NCBI GenBank assembly: GCA_009733575.1
Contig: ML769401.1
Coordinates: 340,730-404,729, forward strand
Reading direction: 5' to 3'
Length of the DNA stretch: 64,000 nt
Origin: Gymnopus androsaceus JB14
Taxonomy: Eukaryota; Basidiomycota; Agaricomycetes; Agaricales; Omphalotaceae
In this document: positions 2,226 through 54,780 of the stretch, piece by piece
Position numbering within the stretch: position 1 is the stretch's first letter
Layout: every line of letters starts with the position of its first letter
Notes under the pieces: model-generated
Databases searched by the model: none
Told to the model about the DNA's origin: nothing
The model's input: the letters and a program-made list of their open reading frames with translations, nothing else
Position numbers and translations under genes: made by a program

Positions 2226-5200
2226 ATGGACGCAAGCACACTGAAGAAGAGACGAATGCAGAATTCTTGCGATACATGTAGATATTTGACCACGCGTTGT
2301 TTTTGAGCAGATTAATGATCCAGTGTTTTGGTCACAGGCAAACGAAGGAAAGTTCGTTGTAAGTTTTTGAATCTCCTTTAGTTCTGAGCTCTTCCGCTCC
2401 ACCTTTCTTCAGGCGACAGTGGGTCCATGCCCGACAACATATGTTCTGGTTGTTTGAATGCAGGTGTCGAATGCACACACAACAGAATGAAACGAGTCAG
2501 TAAACTTTCAACACTTCTCGGAGTATACCAACCACCTCTGTTTTCTAGAAACGCGGACCTAAACCAGCGTGAGGAATCCATTATCTTCCTTGGAAGGTTA
2601 TCCTTCAAGTTCTTTTTCTTTCTTCATCTAGCCCAAAGAGCACGACTGAAAATAGTTTCGAATCTGCCGAAACCTTGGTCTCATGCATCTTAGCAGAGCC
2701 AGAAACCTATCCGATACCAGGGGATCCGGATACCATTCGTGCATTACTAGTTGATATCTCCCGTTATGCCTATTCTCTCTCGAAGCAGAACTCACACCGT
2801 CCGTCACGGTCCGATTCTGTAGTCGTTCAGGCTATCCCCGCATCTCTCGAAGCCTCGCCTACCCCACCACTGGCAGATTCTCCTTTTACGACTGATCCAG
2901 TGGTCGATCCGGATGAAAACTCCAACGAAGACATTGATGCGAATACAATCTCAGAAAACCTCCAGAAGCTTTCGCTACAAAGTCACGATCAACCTCGACA
3001 TTTCGGCATGTCCAGCAATTATGTTCTCGTCCAGACGCTTTTGGATTTCAAGCAAGAAGCTACAGGACGCACGCAGGAAATACACGCTGAGACCGTGAAA
3101 AGACCCGAGTTTTGGAATATATCTCCGGTAAGTAATGGCCACGTATCAACATTTTTGATAAACACCACTTAAGAACGTTGTAACCTACAGTGGCAACGCG
3201 ATATTCAACTCCTCCATGCTGGTCCGCCTCTTGTATTTCCCGACGACGATCTCCTATGTGATCTCATTGAGATTTACTTCACCCATTTCGAGCCATACAT
3301 GCCTCTACTATACCGTAGTAGCTTCGAGCAATCAATCACTGAAGGCTTGCACTATATCGATATCGGATTTGGGCAGGTAGTTTTGGCGGTATGTGCGTTA
3401 GCATCAAGGTGCAGTGATGATCGAAGAAATATGCCCGAAGGAACAGATTCAGAACATGCGATGGGCTGGCGTTGGTATCGTCAAATTTCCGTCAAGCCAT
3501 CCTCATTCATTGAGGCACCTAGACTTTATGATCTTCAGCTGTGTGTTGTGCGTATTGAAGCCGCTAGCAGTCTCAAATGTCAACTTACGTTGAATTTAGC
3601 TAATGATCACATATCTACAAGCTTCATCGATCTCAGAGTCTAGTTGGGTCCTACTCGGAGTCGGAATGCGTCTTGCACAAGCCATAGGTATACATCGAAA
3701 ACGACCAGGCCAACCTAGGACGATTGAAAGGGAACTTTGGATCCGAGCGTTCTGGTCTATTGTGACATTTGATACCTATGCAAGTATGTTTTTGGGACGG
3801 CCTCGTGTGACAACAATGGACGAGTGAGTACACTTTTTTTTAAATTACTACGTGTACATAGGACCTAATGTATTTCACGTAGCTTCGATGTCGAGTATCC
3901 AGCGGATTGCGATCCGGAGTTTTGGATCAATCCAGAGTGTCCCGAAAAAAACTTTATTCAGCCTCCAGAAATACCTTCGAAAGCAGCATTCTGGTTACAC
4001 TTCATCAAGCTTCTGGAGATTGCTGGTCTCGTTCATAGATTGATAGTAAGAAATAAATATTGCGCTTTGACCAAAAAATGTTGATATTGTCTAGTATCCT
4101 ATTCGGAAATCTGAACACTGGAGAAGATTGGGTGTTCAAGGAAAATCATGGAACCAGAAAGCAGTGATAGAGCTGGACTCAGCTTTGAATGAGTGGGCGA
4201 GTGCCGTTCCTGATCAAGGCAAATACTATCCTTTTCCTCTTGTTTCCTACGATTAATGTCGCCTTCTGCTGACTACAGTAAAATGGGACCCCAACCGTGC
4301 TGACTTGATCTTCTTCCACCAATCAGTCATGTTATATACCTCATATTACTGTAAGTCTCATTCTCGGTAATTCAAGCTGCATCTTTCTGGTTTATTCAAC
4401 TAACACTTTGCTTTCCAAGGGGTGCAAATACAAGGTATGTTTCAAGTGAACCGTTATCATTTTATTGATCTTACAAGTGCACTCAAGTTCATAAGCCTTG
4501 GATTCCAAGGCCAGATCAAGATAGGATTCTATCTGGGTTTCCCTCATTGGCGATTTGTGCAAATGCCTCCCGAACAATAATTCACGTAGCAGAGACGCAA
4601 CGTAAGAGGCAGACGTTGGAATATCCTATTCCCATTCCGCTAGTGAGCAAATTGCAATAGATTTTACTGCATTCAGATTCTCAGAGAATGTCCAGCCATC
4701 TGTGTTTGTCTCCGCCATTATGCTTCTCATAAACTACTGGAGAGGAAAGAGGTTAAATTCATCGTTAGATGCTCGAAAAGAGATGTGCGATGTGTACAGA
4801 TGCTTTGGGATACTCAGACCGTACGAGAGGCGGTAGGTGCCCGGCCTTTCATTGGATATTTTCATTCTAATGTTGGGTTAGATTCCAGGGAGCAGGTCGA
4901 ATGATGTAAGTCGTCTCGTTCTGCTATTACTTAAATGTGGGCTATATCAATAATATCTTTTTAGCGATGTTCTCAAGGGGATCATTTCTATCGGTCAATT
5001 AAACACTCACCCGACCTCTCCACCTTTGGCTAACCCAGCTCACAATTGGATTACAAATTCCAGTATTAGCATTTCAAATGAACTGGCCGGGTACCCAAGC
5101 TCAAGCTCCTCACGGATAAAGAATATTGAAAGTGCTACTGGTAATAGCCCGGATCCTCAGTATTCTACCAACCACGGACATATTAATGACAGTGCTCCCC

Positions 5201-37455: not shown

Positions 37456-40400
37456 GAGGGAAACGATATCGTCAGGCATTTACAGCATTAAACGAGGAAG
37501 ATCAGGCAGAGCTCGGGAAGCTCTGGGGTTTTGTGAAATCTCAACAGTGAACACAGGTCCTGTTGAGTCTCAGTCAATTTCGGACATGGACAGTTCTATA
37601 TATGTAGATAGTGGTATTTCATACACAATAAATACACCTGAATCTACCCCTATTTTGCCATCTCCAAAAAAAACTGAAAACCCTGTAAAGTTTGCTCTGA
37701 ATTCTTCAGAATGGCTGGTTAACTGTATTCGGACATCGAACGACTCTCGAGCAATCGGGGAATTACGGACTTGGGTCCCTAATAACCGACAACGAGAAAT
37801 AACGGATCAAACGGTAACGGAAATAAGGAAATTGTCAGTACCTGATGCAGTTGAAGCAGTCAATAACTTCAAACGTAAACGTTTCGTAAGAGGAACAAAA
37901 GGCAAGGACCTTAAACTATCAGTCATAATCGAAGACATCACGAAAGGCAATCAAGTAGAAGCAGATGCACTTCTAGATTGTGGAGCAACCGGATCGTGTA
38001 TCAATAAAGAATTTGTTGAGAAACATAACATTCTGATCTGAAAACTTCCAATCAAAATTGCCGTATACAATGCTGATGGTACTTTAAATGCCAGCGGATC
38101 AATCGAAGCAATGGCAGAAGTCCGTTTAGTCATCGGAGACCATGTGGAAAGAATAGAATTTGGAGTTACCAATCTTGGAAACACCGATATCTTCATTGGT
38201 CTTGATTGGCTTAGAGAACGTAACCCTAGCATAGATTGGACAAATTCTACCGTTACATTTGACCATTGTCCCACTCGTTGCGGCTATATTCCTTGGTGGC
38301 TAAATCCAGAAGAAGGAACCTCCCTCAATCACCTAGAAGAAGGAGAGAGACTTTTCATATTTGATTGGGAAGGCTATGTCAAAGATCATGGACACATACA
38401 CGCCATGTCAGAATCCTCTACAGCAGATCAATACTGTTAAAGAACACCCTGCTGTATTCAATAAACAAGGATTTGACGAACTTCCTAAACGATGAACATG
38501 GGATCATGCCATTGAACTCACACCCGGTTCCAACCCTGTAGACTGTAAAGTGTATCCTCTGAATCTTGATGAACAAAAGGCACTAGATGAATTCTTAGAA
38601 GAAAATCTACGATCAGGACACATTTGTCCATCAAATTCTTCAATGGCTTCACCATTCTTCTTTGTCAAGAAGAAAGATGGTACTTTACGACCAGTTCAGG
38701 ATTATCGGAAACTCAATGACATGACGATTAAAAACCGTTATCCACTTCCTCTAATCCAAGAACTAATCGATAAGCTTAAAGATGCCAAGGTCTTTACAAA
38801 AATGGACATTCAATGGGGATACAACAATATTTGGATCAAGGATGGTGATGAATGGAAAGCCGCATTTAGGACAAATCGAGGGTTGTTCGAACCAATGGTT
38901 ATGTTCTTTGGTCTTACAAACTCTCCTGCAACGTTCCAAGCATTCATGAATCACTTCCTGAAACGTCTCATTGACGAAGGACACGTAATTTTATATATAT
39001 GGACGATATTCTTGTATTCACAAACACTACTGAAGAACATCGTTGCATTGTACATGAAGTCCTTCAAATCCTTGAAGAAAACAGTCTTTATCTCAAACCA
39101 GAGAAATGTACATTTGAATCACCACATGTTGATTATCTTGGAATCATTGTCGGAAACGGACAGGTGAAAATGGACCCAAAGAAAGTCGAAGCCGTCAAAG
39201 ACTGGCCAGTCCCAAAGAAGAAACGCAACATACAATCCTTTTTAGGATTCTGTAACTTCTTTAGACTCTTCATTCGAGAGTTCAGTTACGTTGCCAGACC
39301 ACTTAGCAAACTCACTGGAAATGCGGAATGGTCATGAGGTCCTGAAGAGTTTCAAGCCTTCGAAACTCTAAAGACAAGAATTACCGAAGACGTTACACTA
39401 GTGATCCCCTTAGATAATGGGAAATTCCGAGTAGAAGCCAATTCATCTGACTTTGCCAATGGTGCTGTACTATCCCAACAGGTTGGTGGAAAATGGAGAC
39501 CAGTAGCCTTTAGATCTCGTTCCCTCAATGACGTTGAACGTAACTATGAGATTTACAATAAAGAAATGATGGCTATTATGGATTCACTATCGGAATGGTG
39601 CCAGTACCTTATGGGCGCTCGAGAACCATTTGAAATATGGACTGATCATCAGAATCTCCAATATTTCCGTAAACCTCAGAAACTTAATCGACGACAAGCA
39701 TGTTGGGTTACAGAACTATCCGAGTACGAATTTGTTCTTCATCACAAACCAGGGACTTCTATGGGAAAAGTGGATGCTTTGTCAAGGATGACAAACCTTG
39801 AAATGGGGGTGAATGACAATAAAGACATTGTTGTTCTTAAACCAGAATTTTTCATCAATATAATCCGTGAAACTGAGAGTCCAGAAGACGCCATAATTGA
39901 CAAAATCAAAAAATATGTCAATAACATGGACAAAGCGGTAGTTGAAGCTCTAAACAGAAAAGACAAATACTGGGTTAATGAACACGGTGGAATTGTTACA
40001 TGGAAAAATTGCATCTACGTACCAAAGAACCAGGAATTACGAGGAGAAATCATACAAAAACACCACGACTCAATCCTTGGAGGACATCCGGGTCAATATA
40101 AAACATGGGAGTTAGTTACTCGATGACTACTGGTGGCCGGGAATGGGAAATGACATCTGAATGTACATAAAAGGATGTGAGAAATGCCAAGCCACAAAAA
40201 TCCATCGAAATAAACCTGTCGGACATCTTAATCCCATAATGTACCATCCGGACCATGGGAATTCGTAGGAGTAGATCTGATTGGGAAGTTACCGGAAGCA
40301 GGAGGATTCGATCGCCATTGCTGTATTCGCCGATCACTATACAAAGCGAATTAGACTTCTTCCCACTCATATGTCATTAACATCAGAAGGCATGGCACGC

Positions 40401-41462
40401 ATGTATAGAGAAAAGATCTTTCCTATTCATGGACTCTTCCGAAAGATTGTACACAATCGAGGTCCACAATTCCATTTGGGTTTCATGAAGGAACTCTACA
40501 AACAACTTGGAATCGAAGCAAACTTCACAATGGCATACCATCCACAAACTAACGGACAAACTGAACAAACAAACCAAGAAACCGAACATTATCTTCGTTT
40601 GTTTATCAATTACCACCAGTCAGACTGGCACGAATGGTTACCTACAGCCAAATTTGCATATAACGATCAAGTACATTCCGCTACGAAAGTTACCCCATTC
40701 TTTGCTGATATGGGTCATCACCCCTATAAAGGCACTGCACAAAAAGAGAAGTCCTCTAATCCCTCAGCCCAAGAGTTTGCCAACAGTATGAAGAAAGTAC
40801 AAGACGAAGTAGGATCAGCGCTAAAGAAAGCGGCTGAAGACATGACTCGCTACTATGACAAAAAACATAGCGAATCAAGAGAATACAAAGTTGGAGACAA
40901 GGTGTGGCTCGAAGGAATAAACATTACGACAAGTCGTCCAATGAAAAAGTTGGATGACAAATGTTTTGGACCTTTTGAAGTACTAGAGAAAGTTGGTCGT
41001 AGCTCGTACAAACTCAAAATCCCAAAAACATGGAGGAACGTTCATAATGTTTTCAATGAAGTCCTCCTCACGCCATATCATCCTCCACAATTCCCAAACC
41101 AACCCCAAAATACCAATCCACCTCCCGTAGAGATCGAAGGAGAAGAACCGGAGTATGAAGTTGAAGAAATAGTCGATTCGAAGGAAAATAAAAGAAGTAA
41201 GGTGTCATACAAAGTCAAATGGAAAGGGTATGGACCACATGAAATGACATGGGAACCAGTATCAAATCTCAACAAAGCAAAGGATGCTATTAAGGATTTC
41301 CATAATAAAAATCCTTCCAAACCACGCTCAAAGGATATCCGGAAACTCGGAATACCCATGTCATTATTTCCCAAACATCTTTTTTGTCCCATTCCTGAAT
41401 CATTAACAACACCTGTCCCAACTTCTATACCAACCGAATCCATGACTGCAAAGCTTGCGTGA
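37408..41462 (+). pseudogene. Retrotransposon pol (protease, RT, RNase H, integrase, chromodomain), broken
   Basis: Protease: LLDCGATGSC near 37973-38005. Reverse transcriptase spans about 38550-39336; its catalytic YMDD motif is split by a frameshift in a TATATATA run near 38990. RNase H follows the stop at 39336. Integrase has the zinc-binding H/C region with a frame break near 40120, then a DDE core where the second Asp position reads HNRGPQF instead of the usual DRGPQF. The chromodomain (YKVKWKGYGPHEMTWEP) lies near 41200-41260. In-frame TGA codons occur at about 38039, 38491 and 39334. The protein cannot be made as one unit from this copy. Confidence 0.9.
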
Positions 41463-41479
41463 TGTGGAAATTGCGTCCT

Positions 41480-41489
41480 AAAGAGGGGG
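41480..41489 (+). other. Polypurine tract
   Basis: AAAGAGGGGG lies three bases before the right LTR, where plus-strand DNA synthesis of an LTR element is primed. Confidence 0.7.
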
Positions 41490-41492
41490 TAA

Positions 41493-41948
41493 TGTTATGA
41501 ACATTCTTATCTTATCAGACACATGGTATTATTCCTTATCATTTTCCTTTATTTACTCTTGTATATCTACATAAGCACGCGCTTGTTTAGACGCGTGGCT
41601 GTACTAATTAAGTTCTGTCGATCAGTATGATTGTTTTCCGATCATAACACATGCTAGCATGTCCATACTTGTATGATCAACCTATCATTACTTATTGTCG
41701 TTTACTTGTTGTCTTTTATTGTTTCATGCATTGTTACCGCATGGTCAGGGTATAGGGTATAGGGCTTAGGGTTTGTACTTTAGTATATAAGTAATTGTAA
41801 CCGTAGCTTAGTCCTTAGCTTCAATCTCGTCAATATCTCCTAGTCCTCAATACATTCTTCTTCTCTTTTCCTCATTGTTCTTGTCTCTGCCTAAGTCTGA
41901 AGTCGTGACACCTGGTACCTCAGTGTTGTGAGGAACTAGTCGCTGACA
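41493..41948 (+). repeat. Right LTR
   Basis: Near-identical to the left LTR, with a 14-bp insertion around 41580 and scattered transitions. Same TG...CA ends and TATA box. Confidence 0.95.
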
Positions 41949-41953
41949 GAGCC

Positions 41954-44900
41954 TGAAGCATCAGCTAACAGCGACCAAACTCGCAACTAACTCACTCAGG
42001 GCAAGACTCCATTGCAAAACCATCGCAATGATTCGAGGCTTCACTTGATAACACCCACCGCATCGGATGTTCCACCAAGTTGGGCCATATAGAGCCAGAT
42101 ACTCATTGATAAGGAGCAAGCAGACAAACTAAATACTAGTAAGAGGATAATCCCAACAAGAAACTTGATCCCGAAAGATGTTCGTAGACTGCCAGATTTG
42201 AGAGTACTTGAAGAGAATCAAGGTAAGATCAAGGGGTTTAGAACTTTAAAAAATAAATGTATCAAAGGACGTATATCCCAACAATGGTCACTGCTCCTTG
42301 CATGCCTAAGAAGACAATTTACAGTAGATAGGCAAATTGAAAAGGAAGATACAATTTCTCCGACTCACCGCAAAACAAAGCTTCGCATAAAACATCAGTC
42401 AAAATCATCTTGAAGATGATTTTGAGTTGCAATGTGCTGATTGTCGGAGATAGGAGTGCAGAAGGACTGGTGGAAATATCCGAGTCTTGCGTGCCCCAGG
42501 GTGTCTGTCGATGGTGAGCGACTCAGTCGCAAGGAAAGGAGGATACTTTGGAGTGAAGAGTACATGGGAGACCATAGATTTGATGGTTGAATAAATATGC
42601 TATCTAGTGCATGCCACTGCAGCTCAGAGTGCTCAAAGAATAGCTAGCGTTATGTCCCGACGTTGAGGAAATATACCCTGGCTACTACTATAGCGTGGCA
42701 GTGGATTTCCCATAGAGATAGATGTCGAAGACAACAGGTACCTGGTATTGTCAGTACCACCATTTGAGCTAATTTTGAAGGCCTCCTCATTAAACTCGGG
42801 TGGGACGGAGGAGGAGATCCAATAATAGAGTTTGTCAGACTACCGTGAAAATGATGATCTAGCGATAACACTTACACTCCTGGATACACGGCAGGATGAT
42901 AAATTTTACCATTATATGGATAGATGAAATTCAGCATTAAGCAATGATAGGCAGCACCCTGAGTGGCAAGACACGCAACGCAGCACACAAAAAAGTGACC
43001 AGATTTTTACCTACATGACTATTACCTTGGAAAACACACTATTGCACTGGGTCAAAGGTCAAGGGGGTCCGAAAAAAATATTTAATTACACCATGCCGAA
43101 AAATATTTTAAGGGCCTCGGAGGGCAACCACCCACCCACGCAACACCCACGTGATGTCTGATATACCATATATGGTAATAATCTTATCTATAACTTTACA
43201 AATCTTGATGACATATGAAGATGACCTCATAGATATCTCCCACTGATGCCTATTTCTAGGCTTAATATTTCTATTTGGCATATATCAACTACAGATGAAT
43301 ACCTATAACAATTACCAATAGCATATTTAACCCTTCAAAGCTCTCAGAGCCTCTGAAAGATAGGTTTGAAAAAAAAATTTAGTGGCCTCTCAGCAGCAAC
43401 CAACCACCCACCATAGTGTAATGGACTGTAATTCCGGTACCCCCTTGTCAAAGGTACCTGTTCAATACTTTTAGATCTCCTCTTCAGCCTCCATTGCAAG
43501 ACTAAGCTGCTATATACATACCCTCAAAATTTGACAACAATTTGCGGAAACGAATGAAAAGGCAGGGCATTATGCAAGAGGAGACGAATATAGTCTCGCG
43601 GTAGGGGTACCAAAAAGGAAGGAGTCCAGAGCAAGGTCTTTCGGCATCTGGCAACCGACACGCTGTTTCAGAGCGCTAAAGCCCCTTAGCGCCGATGGCC
43701 TTGTCTAGACTCCTACCCCCCTTCGTCTCCTCTTGGCATTATGAGCGCCTATCCGAAACTTGATTCTGTTCCCCGACACAATGACTGGATCGCAAGCTGC
43801 AGCAGACAACACAAAAGATTTTTCGCTTCAGTCTATTTTAGAGGTTATCTAGAAAGCTCGAAGCATGAGCTGAGAAGAATTTGACCACCCAGGTGAGCAT
43901 AGCCTATTAACCATCGCGTTAATTCACTTACCCATATGGCTCATTCGCAGCTCGAATGGTCGTCTCATATCATTCATTTGCGCTGGTCAATTCGCGAGAG
44001 CTCCTATCGCTAACTCACAACTCATTCCCGAAGGAACAACCTCTAGCCAAATCATGCAGTCGATAGAGACATAGATACCAGTAACCATGTCGTACCTGCT
44101 GAAGCTGGCTAGTGGTCCTGGGCCCGAACGCCTACCCTTTCCACACACGCCAGCTCCAGACGTAGCGTCCCAAGCGTACATCATAGCAAACGATAGAGGA
44201 TTCAAGGGCGGAGAGCGGTAATTTGTAGGCCGTATCTGTATCTGGCGGCGAGCATGTTACTACCATCTGTCTCTTATTCTGAATGCGTTTCGGCACTCAT
44301 AGACGAATCGGACCCGTAATTATATCAGCTCACCTTCAATGGCAATGTTTTCAGATGCGCTATCACCCACGGACACTCCTTTCGAACATCGATGTCGACA
44401 GGAAGTTTGAAACAGGACCTGCAGGATTGAAGAGCGTTTTTGTGCTTACATACAGAACGTCTTCGTTTACGCATCGACATCCGCTCTGGCTCAAACAATT
44501 TCCCCTTTGAATGAACGCTTTCCCGCTCTGCATCCCAAGTCGCCACTCCTTTCGCAATCCCAACACACCCGAGTAAACGTGTACCTATACATCCGAAAGC
44601 TGCACCAGTGCTAGTGCTAGGCAAATATGTGGACGGTGTACATATGCAAGAGGTGCTGGTGGTGCCCGTAATCTCCCCGCGATCCCGACGCCGCAGAAAG
44701 AGTCATGCCAAATGGATCCCCACTTTCAATCCAAATCCGTATCACGCAGTTCCATCTGCATCGCTCGTGGTCCTCCCGCGACTGTTGGACCCTCGAAACC
44801 AAACGACTCAGCCTTCTGTTGAACGCTCACGGTGTTTGTAGCATCTTCCAATAGCAGGTTCCCGTATTGGTGCTATTCGAATAATTTTCTCCGCTATTGC

Positions 44901-45548
44901 TGCTAGTTATGGTTCTACCTTGGTTCAGACCAAGAAATAGGAATAAAAGATAAGATCGGGACAGATAATCGTCACAGAAATATTGCCACTTTCGCTAGCT
45001 CCGAGCCAAGATTACCATCAGCTGGCGATCCTGCTTCCAATCCCAATCTTCAAGTCAACACGGTCATTATGATCATTTTAGCGAAATATTTTGCTTGAAT
45101 GAATTCAGCCACCTTTATTCACCAAACATACGGAAGAGCTTCTCATGTTAAACAGTCGATGCAGGTGATAAGTCGAGATTGGATACCACTTTCATTTGGC
45201 GCACTGACATCAATGGACACGCTTGCTTTCTGCCTTCGTCCATCACGCCCTGGAACTTTTACTGCTACTAATTCGACTTTAAAAAGTTATCCAATATTGT
45301 ATAAAGGTACAAACTGCGCTCTAATTCTCGCAAGGTACTCGTCCGAAATGTTCGACAACATCGTGGGTCCTCGACGCCTCCAGTGATCCACCAACTTACG
45401 CTGGTTCCCTTGCTGTTTGGAAGGAAGGTCTATTAGTATTACAAAGGGAGCGGATTGTCTTTTTCATTTTCAATTGGTATTGCTGCCTCAGTAACAGCTT
45501 AATGGAAGATAGGGGGCTTGAGTGAATCCAGAACTGACAGGGGTTGCT
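41954..45548. other. Unassigned 3.6 kb right of the retrotransposon
   Basis: No supported gene. A ~30-bp phrase with GGCCTC and GCAACCACCCACC recurs at about 43115 and 43390. Minus-strand frames at 43987-44205 and 44325-44624 and plus-strand frames at 44608-44841 look partly protein-like but could not be joined. The first ~400 bp (42165-42413) may be a transposase relic. Confidence 0.3.
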
Positions 45549-50589: not shown

Positions 50590-51720
50590 GAAAATAAATA
50601 TCAGCAAAACCTGGGTGTTTGCTACTGGCATATAAGACCAATACATTTGGAGCATCTGGAGCAAGGGTACCCATTCCAGAGACCTCCAGGGAATTTTGAC
50701 AGCTTTTTGGCAGCTTGCAGGGCTCTGGAGATCTCTCAAGACCACCCAGGCTTTGCTTATGAAGATCTACTCTTCCTAGCTAAACCCACTGACTGATCCA
50801 ATATATCTATTGATGGGATTTAGACCATGAGCATGACCATGAAACTCTTGTATAGGTGGGATCTGAAGTATGAAATACATCAGCAACATCAGTAGACCAT
50901 GTATTGTGCAGCTAGTGCCCAAAAGTGCTGGCCAACACTTCATCAGCAAAACCTGGGTGAACTGGATAGCACTGGATAGTGCTATCCAGCACTCATAGCA
51001 CCCATAGCACCCATAGCAAGATCCCCATCTATCCAAGCATCTCACAGGTTTTGCTGATGAGAGCTATGGGCTGCTATGGATTACTATAGAGCATGACATC
51101 TGTCAACAGGCAATGAAATTTGGGAAGTCCATAGTAACTCATAGCTACCCATAGCAATTCATAGCAGTTCATAGTTCTATGGCTGCTATGGCTTGCTATG
51201 GCTTGCTATGGCTTGCTATAACAGCTATGCAATTATCCAGATTTTGCTGATGCTTCCAGTGCCCCAGCACTTGAATGGTCTGGGCAGCACCAGCCAGAGC
51301 TCCCCATCAGCAAAACCTGTACCATCACAATACATTTCTTTCATCTCTGGAGCAAGGATAGTAGTTCCAGAGATCTCCAGAGACCTCCAGAGATGTCTGG
51401 AGAAGTTTGGCAGCTTTTTGACAGCTGTCAGAGCTCTGGAGATCTTTGGAGACCTCTGGAGACCAACCAGGTTTTGCTGATGCCAGCAGGCCAGAACTTG
51501 CCCTACATCAGCAAAACCTGGTTGTTTGCTGGAGCTCTCAGAGCATTGAATTGAGCTCTGGAGACCTCTGGAGACCTCTGGCTGCTCTGGCTGCTCTGAA
51601 GCTGCCATCAGCCAAACCCGGATATCTGCTGGAGCAGCCAGAGCATTGAATTGCGCTCTGGAGAGCTCTGGAGATCTCTGACTGCTCTGGTTGATCCAAG
51701 CAGACAACAGCTGTCAGACT
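50590..51720. repeat. Dispersed short-repeat cluster, left part
   Basis: At least seven copies of CAGGTTTTGCTGATG or its inverse CATCAGCAAAACCTG occur in both orientations, mixed with many GGAGACCTCTGGAGA-type 8-9-bp units and, at about 51050-51220, a run of CTATGGCTTG units. The same phrases reappear at 54440-54780, beyond the hAT-like element. Confidence 0.8.
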
Positions 51721-51813
51721 TGAATGTCGGTTAAGTGACATAAAAGGAAACGGTTGCCAGGCCCTTCTTTTTACATCACATAACCGACAGAACGGTCACC
51801 CAATGCTGTAAAC

Positions 51814-54058
51814 TAGTGTTGCCGCAGCTCGGCTAGCCGGTAGCCAGCTCGTCAAGCTGCGGCTCGGACAGCTAGCCGGCTCTTGAGCTGAAGTAAGCCG
51901 GCTCTCCAGCTGGTGGCTTGGCTGCGGGGCCAGCTTACAGCCGGCTCCCTGTCATACTTGAACCACCTCACGTCCATTCATACTTTGGACCTTCTTGTTG
52001 AAGCGGTGACCTGTCTCGACATAACGATGAGCTTATGACTGCCAAGGACTCGGACCTAGTGGTAATACAAGACATGGAAAATGCAAGTACGATAGACCAT
52101 GGAACGTTGTGAAAGGACCCCGGAAACTACACCCAAGGTTTGTCCGGAATAGTGTATTTTAGGGGGCGATTTTGGCGAACTCCCTGTCCTATTATAACGT
52201 ATTTTAGGGCAGAAGCTCAGATTCCCTGTCCTAGAATAGCATACTTTAGGCTGGCGCGTCAGCGCCAAGCCAAAATTTTTACTTTCAACAAATCCGTAGC
52301 GCGAAGTTGATCAATAAATATTGCGCACGCAGTGAATAAAAAACAAAATAACAATTCATTCCAATCCATTGACTAAACATTACATGTGTAAGAACAATAC
52401 TGTAACAAAACCCTGTATAAATTTGAACAATTTCAAACAATTATTGTACTGAAAGTCCTTGAATGAATGCACAAACAAAGGTTAGGTAGTGCCCAGTCCC
52501 CACCAAGAGAAGTACGAATCATATTTGAGGGCCAATGGTGATTTTGTCAAGACCAAACATAAGAATAAGGAGTACTTACAAGACTCTGCAGTGTATGTGC
52601 TTGGCAAAAGATGCAGGCTTGTCCAAAGCCTATCCAGAAGCAAGGGGGCGATGCTTAACCATAGACTAGGACAGAGTGGAGAAGGGCAGTCTCGAAGAAA
52701 ACCCTAATTCCTCGATGATGAGATTCAAAAATTTAGTGCAAAGATCTTCTTCGAGGCCACGTGGGAGAACACTGAGCAGTTGCGGAGAGCTTGGGCCTTC
52801 ATATGCTCCTACATTGACAGTCAGAAGAATATATTGTATATGAGCACAACAGAAAAGTTACTAACCATGTTTGTCGACTAACCTAATTGACCAGTGATGA
52901 GAGCACAAGGATAGTTGGCAGAAGTTGAAATACTCGGGGATGATGTCCTCACAGTCATCGATGATGAGGACACCACAAAGGTAGAGGTTGCTTCTTTTTC
53001 GACTCGAAGAGATTGAAAGGCACACTAGAGAAAATGATTAGCAACGCAAGTCAGTAGCAATGTGAAAGTAGTACACACCATTTGAGAATTAAGAACATAA
53101 CTTTGAACGTTGTTAGTTAAGCTCTTGTATAACGCGGCATACTCTTTGATAGTAATGTTTTTGGGGTTACATGCCCAGATGGGTTTCATCTTGTTGGTGG
53201 TTTCAACCAACCTTGATCTTCATTGTCATCTTGTCCTTGGAGTTGTTGTCCTTCTCGGCCTCCGTATTCTTGAGCGTCGGCATCAGCGTCCCTCAATGTC
53301 CTTGATCTTCTTCTCTGTAAGATATTCGAGCCGGTCTTCCTTGAGATAAAGTTGGTATCACAACGAAGAGGAGGTTTGTGTGATCATGAAGGTACCACCA
53401 GCAACTGACTCACAGATGTACTGCTCGTCGTGGTTGCGCTTGGAGATAATTTGCACACACGGCGACAAGATAGGCATAGTAAAGACCAACACCAAATTGA
53501 CTGATCAGAGAGATCAGCACTGGGTTTTGGGAAGGGGAGGCCAGAAAAGTCTTCTGGGGATGCATCAGAGAAGTAATTCGGTGCTGGAAAAGGTCTCAGA
53601 GACGTTGGGGAAGGAGAGGTTGAGACGGATGGGTTGAACTAGAAATCCTTTATTATTATTATTATAAAAAACAAAATAGATAATATACATACATCAACAG
53701 AATCTTCCTTGTCATTGCCTCCATTCAGAACACGGCTAAGCATAGGTCCTTTGGAAACAAAAAGTAATAATGGAGAAGACTTTCGCGTTCTTGTTGGGAT
53801 CGAGGGGCAGAGAGGGCGAGAGAATGACCATGTACTCTCCAGTTTCAAGCACAGAATGGTTGGTCAAAGAAGCGTATTGGATTTTGTCGGATTTTGTCGA
53901 GAGCATCGAGGAAAGGAAGCGAAAAAAAAACCCTGAAGCCGGCGCTTGAGCCTGTGAAGCTGGCCCATGCGATTCTTTGTGGCTTCAGCTCGGCTCAGCT
54001 TGAAAACCAGCTCGTAGCCAGCTACGAGCTGGTTTTTCCTCAAGCCGCGGCAACACTA
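51814..54058. mobile_element. 2.2-kb non-autonomous hAT-like element
   Basis: The ends are inverted TAGTGTTGCCGC (12 bp, continuing RGCT). CTGTAAAC flanks both sides (51806-51813 and 54059-54066), an 8-bp target duplication typical of hAT elements. Subterminal parts are full of AGCTCG/GGCTAGCC motifs, including a perfect palindrome CCAGCTCGTAGC...GCTACGAGCTGG at 54007-54032. I see no hAT transposase. The interior is mostly a piece of an HSP90 gene. Confidence 0.85.
52581..53915 (-). pseudogene. HSP90 pseudogene fragment inside the hAT-like element
   Basis: HSP90 is the cytosolic ATP-dependent chaperone; here only a broken piece remains. Colinear matches to the family on the minus strand: LDALDKIR and YASLTNHSVLETG near 53850-53910, SQFGVG near 53490-53505, ISKRNHDEQYICES and AGGTFMIT near 53400-53460, LYLKEDRLEYLTEKKIKDIE near 53290-53350, KPIWACNPKNITIKEYAA near 53135-53190, FNLFESKKK near 53010, DDCEDIIPEYFNF near 52940-52975, KAQALRNCS near 52785-52810, FFETALL near 52690, SFAKHIHCRVL near 52583-52613. 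Frame breaks and stops are frequent, and roughly 200 residues are missing after EYFNF. Three intron-like stretches with splice sites remain, so genomic DNA, not cDNA, was captured. Confidence 0.85.
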
Positions 54059-54439
54059 CTGTAAACTGTCAGGACATCATATAAAGGTGTCGCTGTTCAA
54101 CTCAAAGTTGAATGTTGACTTGTACTTTTTTTTTCTTCCTTCCCCGAGCCTCCATTGTTGCAACTTGGTCCCACTTTCCCTCCTCTTACTGTAAGCTCGT
54201 ATCCCTTTTGAGCATCAATTCACTGATATTTTGGAAAACCAATAGCTGTAGGGTAGAGGCTGGCTTGGTGAACGGGTTTCTAAGTTTATCATGTAGTACT
54301 ATAGTAGTATGTTGTCTGACTCCCCTCGGAAGTGTATGATACATAACAATAAAATGCTTACTTTTTCTATTATTATTGCATGTGAAAAATTTGATATGTA
54401 AATTTTCAATTGAATGGGGCTCAGTAACCTGAATCGTTG

Positions 54440-54780
54440 AATGATGGGTGGTCTCCAGAAAGCTCCAGAGAACTCAATAGTCCTCCAGAGCTTCCTGGAA
54501 TTACTATCCTTGCTACAGCAGCTCCAAAAGCTATGGGTGCTCTGGAGCTCTCTGGAGATCTCTGGAGACCACCCAGGTTTTGCTGATGTATTTGGAAATA
54601 AAAAAGGTAACTTGTATGACTTTTTATTAAAATTTATTCTGGGAAGCACTGGGAAGTCTCAGCAATGCTGTGGGAAAAAATATCTAAAATACAGGTTTTG
54701 CTGATGAAAACCTGTATGTTCTCCAGAGCACTCCAGAGCATCCAGAGTAGCCAGCGCAAAGGTAGTAGTTCCAGAGAGCT
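54440..54780. repeat. Dispersed short-repeat cluster, right part
   Basis: Two plus-strand copies of CAGGTTTTGCTGATG (about 54573 and 54692) with CTCCAGAG/CTCTGGAG units, of the same kind as 50590-51720. Together they suggest that the hAT-like element landed in, or next to, an older repeat array. Confidence 0.75.

Follow-up and report, generated by a model that had tools for sequence, protein, structure and literature searches.

A Non-autonomous hAT-Type Element in Gymnopus androsaceus Carrying Intron-Containing Pieces of HSP90 and a WHI2-like Gene

The window analyzed here is a 64,000-nucleotide stretch of Gymnopus androsaceus JB14 (contig ML769401.1, corresponding to C19:340730-404729 of the 83.3-Mb genome; the window copy is called C19). 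It contains a complete element with 12-bp terminal inverted repeats (TIRs) and an 8-bp target site duplication (TSD), within which remnants of an HSP90 gene and part of a gene for a WHI2-like (phosphatase activator) protein are read on the minus strand (Table 1). The original prediction, that inverted ends and a duplication frame 2.2 kb with no visible transposase, agrees with the data on both counts. Among 187 perfect 12-bp inverted pairs in the window (200-10,000 bp spacing), only the pair at 51814/54058 has a perfect 8-bp duplication, and none of 145 matches to the hAT dimerisation domain (PF05699; 150 of 237 candidates scored) or, in a second search, of 40 matches to the hAT transposase C-terminus fell inside the element.

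The TIRs of the hAT superfamily are short and of the TAGTGTT type. Such ends, matching at 12/12 bp, and the 8-bp TSD are present in the window element; it has no hAT transposase of its own, and its assignment to hAT is based on the ends that it has in common with the transposase-bearing relative C126, described below. The element is inserted as a unit. A resemblance to its subterminal palindrome is seen in other aligned hAT ends. The surrounding DNA has CTCCAGAGACCTCCAGAG-type repeats, which share a ...CAGGTTTTGCTGATG motif, to the left and right of the element (window 51300-51700 and 54450-54590), as if it were seated among copies of another repeat. A 25-bp inverted repeat at 51725-51789 (84% complementary, 15-nt spacer), 16 bases before the target duplication, is possibly a tiny foldback element.

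Table 1. Features of the window element (window positions).
Feature	Position	Strand	Basis or remark
Complete non-autonomous hAT-type element	51814..54058	.	2245 bp; TIR and TSD pair, related copies
Target site duplication, 8 bp, left copy, CTGTAAAC	51806..51813	.	perfect
TIR, 12 bp, left, TAGTGTTGCCGC	51814..51825	+	perfect inverted match to right end
Left subterminal region common to C126, C32, and C105	51814..51962	+	about 85% identity, element positions 1-149
HSP90 exon 7 remnant	52579..52805	-	alignment to C71
HSP90 intron 6, retained	52806..52865	-	41/56 aligned bases shared with intron 6 of C71
HSP90 exon 6 end fused to exon 5 start (remainder of both deleted)	52866..53023	-	alignment to C71
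HSP90 intron 4, retained	53024..53077	-	identity to C71, 38/52 aligned bases
HSP90 exon 4 remnant; window copy without intron 3	53078..53295	-	profile and alignment
HSP90 exon 3 remnant	53295..53514	-	tblastn and alignment
WHI2-like gene piece, replacing the HSP90 exon 2/exon 3 region	53577..53759	-	match to C353 gene
Intron of WHI2-like piece, retained (GTATGT...TTTCTAG)	53639..53692	-	
HSP90 exon 2 remnant (ATPase domain), with 15-nt insertion common to hAT copies	53766..53927	-	
Subterminal palindrome	54003..54036	.	perfect 16-bp arms, 2-nt spacer
TIR, 12 bp, right, GCGGCAACACTA	54047..54058	-	inverted match 12/12 bp
Target site duplication, 8 bp, right copy, CTGTAAAC	54059..54066	.	perfect

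The host HSP90 gene lies on C71 at about 40270-42760, with open exon frames; the best match of its spliced product is at 94%, and the best named one, from Collybiopsis luxurians (Omphalotaceae, Agaricales), at 93%, among the best 120 of 8000 matches. When the C71 exons were compared with a small database of selected loci, colinear tblastn matches were obtained on the window minus strand (best E = 3.5e-18, exon 3), and in a genome-wide six-frame Pfam search the exon 4 stretch C19:393823-393948 scored 30.2 bits as HSP90, with a cut-off of 24.4. Exons 3, 4, 5, and 6 of the window copy are 78-84% identical to C71 (196/250, 170/216, 90/109, and 41/49 aligned bases, respectively), and identity is weaker in exon 2 (133/226) and exon 7 (148/227), in part through poor alignment and, in exon 2, replacement of the tail. 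Pfam analysis of five separate window pieces returned HSP90 for exon 4, barely above threshold (24.8 bits versus the 24.4 cut-off), and for exon 7 at no better than E = 0.13, an unrelated family alone for exon 3 (E = 0.12), and nothing for the exon 2 or WHI2-like pieces; the HSP90 assignment rests chiefly on the host-gene tblastn matches and the whole-genome HSP90 profile.

The predicted colinear series of HSP90 motifs, from the ATPase domain to the C-terminal region, is borne out insofar as parts of exons 2-7 occur in order. It requires amendment at 53577-53759, which is WHI2-like, and in that most of exons 5 and 6 are missing and exon 8 is absent as far as it can be aligned. Stop codons and frame changes occur in the aligned HSP90 frames; the cargo is decayed and cannot specify a working chaperone.

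The WHI2-like piece is identical to a host gene on C353 at 148 of 212 positions (70%, E = 1e-22; the window copy alone was compared directly). The name derives from homologs, since proteins called WHI2-like or phosphatase activator are among the best 120 of 1556 matches to the C353 protein, which in Pfam gives a weak match to BTB_2 (E = 0.021). The WHI2-like stretch can also be aligned in C448, C69, C527, C148:66.6-67.7 kb, and C441, which with the window copy makes six of nine hAT rows. On C353 itself, WHI2-like stretches are found at 38.2 kb and 55.8 kb (L086 and L087, 17.6 kb apart) and are near-identical where the element matches, reflecting a duplication or an assembly effect. C199 was considered as the source and rejected, having a weak protein match (42%, E = 0.0019) and no DNA match to the element, whereas C353 has one. 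A further candidate gene piece at about 52486-52620 (+, EKYESYLRANGDFVKTK...) has three genome matches, C19, C448, and C69, none of which is a host source, and it is therefore not counted as a captured gene.

The ends of the element are repeated in the genome, as had been anticipated: the 16-base end TAGTGTTGCCGCNGCT has 42 exact matches, both ends of the window element included, versus 0 for a reversed control. In the regions examined, C19, C448, C32, C126, C148:158139-164474, and seven elements of 477-536 bp have both ends together with an 8-bp duplication, which among these 12 members is perfect in 8 and has one mismatch in 4. At ten loci, HSP90 pieces adjoin hAT-type ends or the sequence next to such ends: C19, C448, C69, C32, C527, C441, C126, C793, C148:66.6-67.7 kb, and C205. 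In C126 and C793 they were recognized by DNA alignment to other copies alone, with 0 tblastn exon matches. Two ends with a duplication frame four of the ten (C19, C448, C32, and C126) and are unconfirmed in the other six, where C69 has two end-like sequences (two mismatches each) without a matching duplication, C527, C441, C793, and the C148:66.6-67.7 kb copy have a single end each, and C205 has an end-like start with one base absent. In C448, C32, and C126, relatives with two ends, HSP90 is enclosed between those ends. Copies with and without HSP90 exist, a possibility that the original prediction had raised, and no outcome at odds with it was encountered at this level, because HSP90 is matched, lies within the ends, and the ends are repeated.

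The left end at C105:100359 (L007, L075) is 99.4% identical to C126 over 155 bp; the sequence beyond it has no match among the loci compared, 8 kb around it contain no partner end, and it is possibly a further composite or broken copy. Inside the 3.7-kb HSP90-bearing relative on C448, an inverted duplication of the left subterminal region occurs at C448:41686-43228 (L003, L010; 393 columns, 93.9%).

Two relatives with a putative transposase were found, hAT transposase sequence being present with the same ends in C126 and in C148:158139-164474. C126:122251-130439 (8189 bp) has the perfect duplication TGGCCGAG on each side and, at the C-terminus, an unbroken frame of 113 aa that contains the hAT dimerisation domain (PF05699, E = 3.8e-9), plus further frames. 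An approximate spliced C126 query gave a best hAT protein match of 41% over 94% (E = 1e-140; 15 matches from 7999 scored candidates) and a best named match in Amanita muscaria (38% over 99%), and mushroom homologs of the C126 transposase carry PF05699. The transposase C-terminus of C148:158139-164474 is 84% identical to that of C126; among 40 matches, C126, C148, and C545 (86%) are closest, and the next is at 56%. On C545, where the family left end lies at 4616, the C-terminus is split, with domain pieces at 1895-2113 and 3679-3801 that are 86-93% identical to C126.

Both of these relatives carry gene pieces. Upstream of the C126 transposase and in the same orientation lie pieces of HSP90 exon 2 and of CLASP (PF12348, CLASP_N, E = 6.2e-9). 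The latter corresponds to about 1.74 kb of the host gene C236, the genome's best CLASP_N match (E = 1.7e-41; one TAG within the matched stretch, introns disregarded), with an identity of 95.1% over 1747 columns in C126 and 92.5% in C441; per 100 bases, the C126 piece is 94-99% identical to C236 except in the first 100 (77/100). C441, whose contig stops short of the expected far end, is 93.5% identical to C126 over 2792 columns and retains more HSP90. A Pfam run on C441 alone identified an FMN-oxidoreductase piece (Oxidored_FMN, PF00724, E = 1.7e-6), and the last part of this stretch is also in C126 by DNA alignment. C148:158139-164474 contains a C-terminal piece of ribosomal uL2 (PF03947, E = 1.3e-27), to which a 297-bp C441 stretch is 76% identical. 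HSP90 was considered in C148:158139-164474 and rejected, the match to the HSP90-side end of C126 being limited to the terminal ~240 bp. Relative to C126, C441 also has a 1.76-kb insert at 43585-45346 (L076), with parts that recur at 94.7% identity in C9 and at 98.6% in C406; judged by these matches, it is another repeat within the transposon.

The overlap between the window copy and C126 is confined to the ends and the exon 2 area, and the window copy is therefore no simple deletion of C126. Comparison of these sequences makes it most plausibly a non-autonomous element from a hAT lineage that captures genes.

HSP90 is also carried by a second repeat. Parts of its N-terminal half occur in C296 (L032), C449 (L021/L033), C387 (L036), C188 (L020), and C398 (L019), which have a common tail ending ...TTACAGGTG or a close variant; C346 is a further locus by coordinates only. 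Exon 3 of C296, C449, C188, C398, and C406 (L025) is 89-93% identical to C71. The 77-nt end of this repeat is present at 31 genome places and can fold into a hairpin of 15 bp; a search for an inverted partner of the tail gave none, and a Helitron-like nature is a guess. Since no hAT-type end pair was found at its HSP90 loci, HSP90 has probably been mobilized at least two times in this genome.

Based on these comparisons, we hold with considerable confidence that the window copy belongs, as a non-autonomous member, to a mushroom hAT lineage that captures host genes as DNA, introns included, and that HSP90 was most likely captured once. A lineage of Omphalotaceae or nearby would take up stretches of host genes with their introns, presumably during repair of transposon-excision breaks by template switching to other genes. 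HSP90 would most likely have been acquired a single time, early, and have spread with the lineage; copies would later have lost parts of it, the WHI2-like piece replacing the exon 2/3 region in six of nine aligned hAT copies. In C126 and C148:158139-164474, which have transposase sequence, the captured pieces sit upstream of the transposase in its orientation. The window copy, with both ends kept and no transposase of its own, was presumably mobilized in trans by a related putative transposase. A broader reading, which we regard as possible though somewhat short of probable, is that of a habitual gene-capturing hAT lineage, transposase-bearing members included, with its pieces in one orientation (HSP90, WHI2-like, uL2, FMN oxidoreductase, and CLASP), and with HSP90 as a capture hotspot taken independently by a second, unrelated repeat family.

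Introns 4 and 6 of the window copy are homologous to those of the host HSP90 gene, indicating that genomic DNA, and not a transcript, was copied, as originally proposed; intron 4 is recognizable in all eight hAT copies displayed. Capture of a transcript or retrocopy is the route reported for ascomycete histone H3 (PMC6710886), yet for HSP90 it is contradicted by these introns, and also by intron 3 in C448 (33/45) and C69 (31/45), the intron in the WHI2-like piece, and the CLASP piece, a single continuous genomic stretch; we consider it most improbable. Equally hard to credit is an old HSP90 pseudogene that owes its flanks to chance or to a pair of separate small elements. The 477-536 bp elements with the same ends would offer material for such an arrangement, but the two ends are bordered by a single matching target duplication and the end-HSP90 arrangement is repeated at other loci. 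In an exon-3 tree the seven hAT-borne copies do not form one clade, so that more than one acquisition, or gene conversion, is possible; C527, C205, and C32 lie without resolution near the host gene, C32 is without exon 2 (and without the WHI2-like piece), and the unrelated repeat carries HSP90 too. Several independent entries from HSP90 as a frequent donor are nevertheless unlikely, for an identical 15-nt exon 2 insertion is present in all eight aligned hAT copies that hold the region (C32 is without it and C793 is unaligned), and in most of these eight the sequence can be aligned from the element end into exon 2. The common insertion makes one capture likely.

A functional role of the HSP90 and WHI2-like pieces, for instance as an antisense or small-RNA source against HSP90, fares poorly; antisense RNA to HSP90 had been raised as a possibility in the original prediction. 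The pieces have been retained in several copies, and exact matches to C71 reach 29-30 nt in C527, C205, and C148:66.6-67.7 kb, which have 10-28 21-mers in common with it (the range among the other eight hAT copies tested being 0-28). Against this, the window copy has just two 21-mers in common with C71, its longest exact match is 22 nt, and its reading frames contain stops and frame changes. The cargo is CpG-depleted in five of seven copies examined (observed/expected 0.24 in C448, 0.35 in C69, 0.53 in C441, 0.54 in C32, and 0.67 in C19) and little depleted in C126 (0.86) and C205 (0.94), compared to 0.99 for the host HSP90 gene. Between C448 and C19, transitions make up 119 of 137 differences, 90 of them in a CpG-like context. 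Such CpG-biased change would fit methylation-linked decay, but C205 and C126 are little depleted. A functional cargo is thus very unlikely overall; antisense control of HSP90 by the window copy appears unlikely, and other hAT copies may have a weak effect of this kind.

More generally, DNA-level capture of several genes by hAT elements, well known in plants, would now extend to a mushroom. The relatives offer a natural series, with an old HSP90 piece, a young CLASP piece (95% to its likely source), and transposase-bearing and short forms, whose junctions could reveal the capture mechanism, the order of events, and decay. Genome annotators should bear in mind that an HSP90-like match in such genomes can represent the cargo of a transposon. 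Plant Pack-TYPE elements are known to include multi-gene mosaics. Such elements (Pack-hAT, Pack-MULE, and Pack-CACTA) are described in plants as non-autonomous (PMC8903248), and the window element resembles them, as had been suggested, in being non-autonomous and carrying captured host coding fragments of HSP90 and the WHI2-like gene between TIRs, with a TSD and no transposase match. The lineage as a whole departs from that description (PMC8903248), because C126 and C148:158139-164474 combine gene pieces with transposase sequence.

Among fungi, Helitrons with captured genes have been reported in Pleurotus ostreatus (PMC4289320), as has transduplication of the histone H3 gene by hAT elements in Pyrenophora tritici-repentis (PMC3538342) and in Pseudocercospora fijiensis and relatives (PMC6710886). 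The notion that hAT capture is little described in mushrooms fits the open-access searches, in whose titles and abstract openings no mushroom hAT element that had captured several genes with introns was found; for fungi at large it must yield to these ascomycete cases. To that extent, intron-bearing multi-gene hAT capture in a mushroom is new, and intronless H3 capture by hAT elements was already known. The H3 element of P. tritici-repentis is 5.6 kb long where it bears a transposase and 2.3 kb in a shortened form (PMC3538342), and a TSD of 8 bp is reported in P. fijiensis, where the captured H3 is described as an intronless transcript or retrocopy, with one identified host gene (PMC6710886). 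Like these H3 elements, the mushroom elements carry a housekeeping gene between the TIRs of a hAT element; unlike them, they retain introns (4 and 6 in the window copy), string together pieces of several genes, and decay mostly at CpG. TET/JBP genes are carried by hAT7 and other fungal DNA transposons, lying upstream of the transposase and in the same orientation in three hAT7 families (PMC12730594). The mushroom lineage likewise consists of fungal DNA transposons with acquired genes, but whereas the hAT7 gene is presumed useful to the element and the TSDs are of 7 bp (PMC12730594), here broken housekeeping pieces are combined with 8-bp TSDs.
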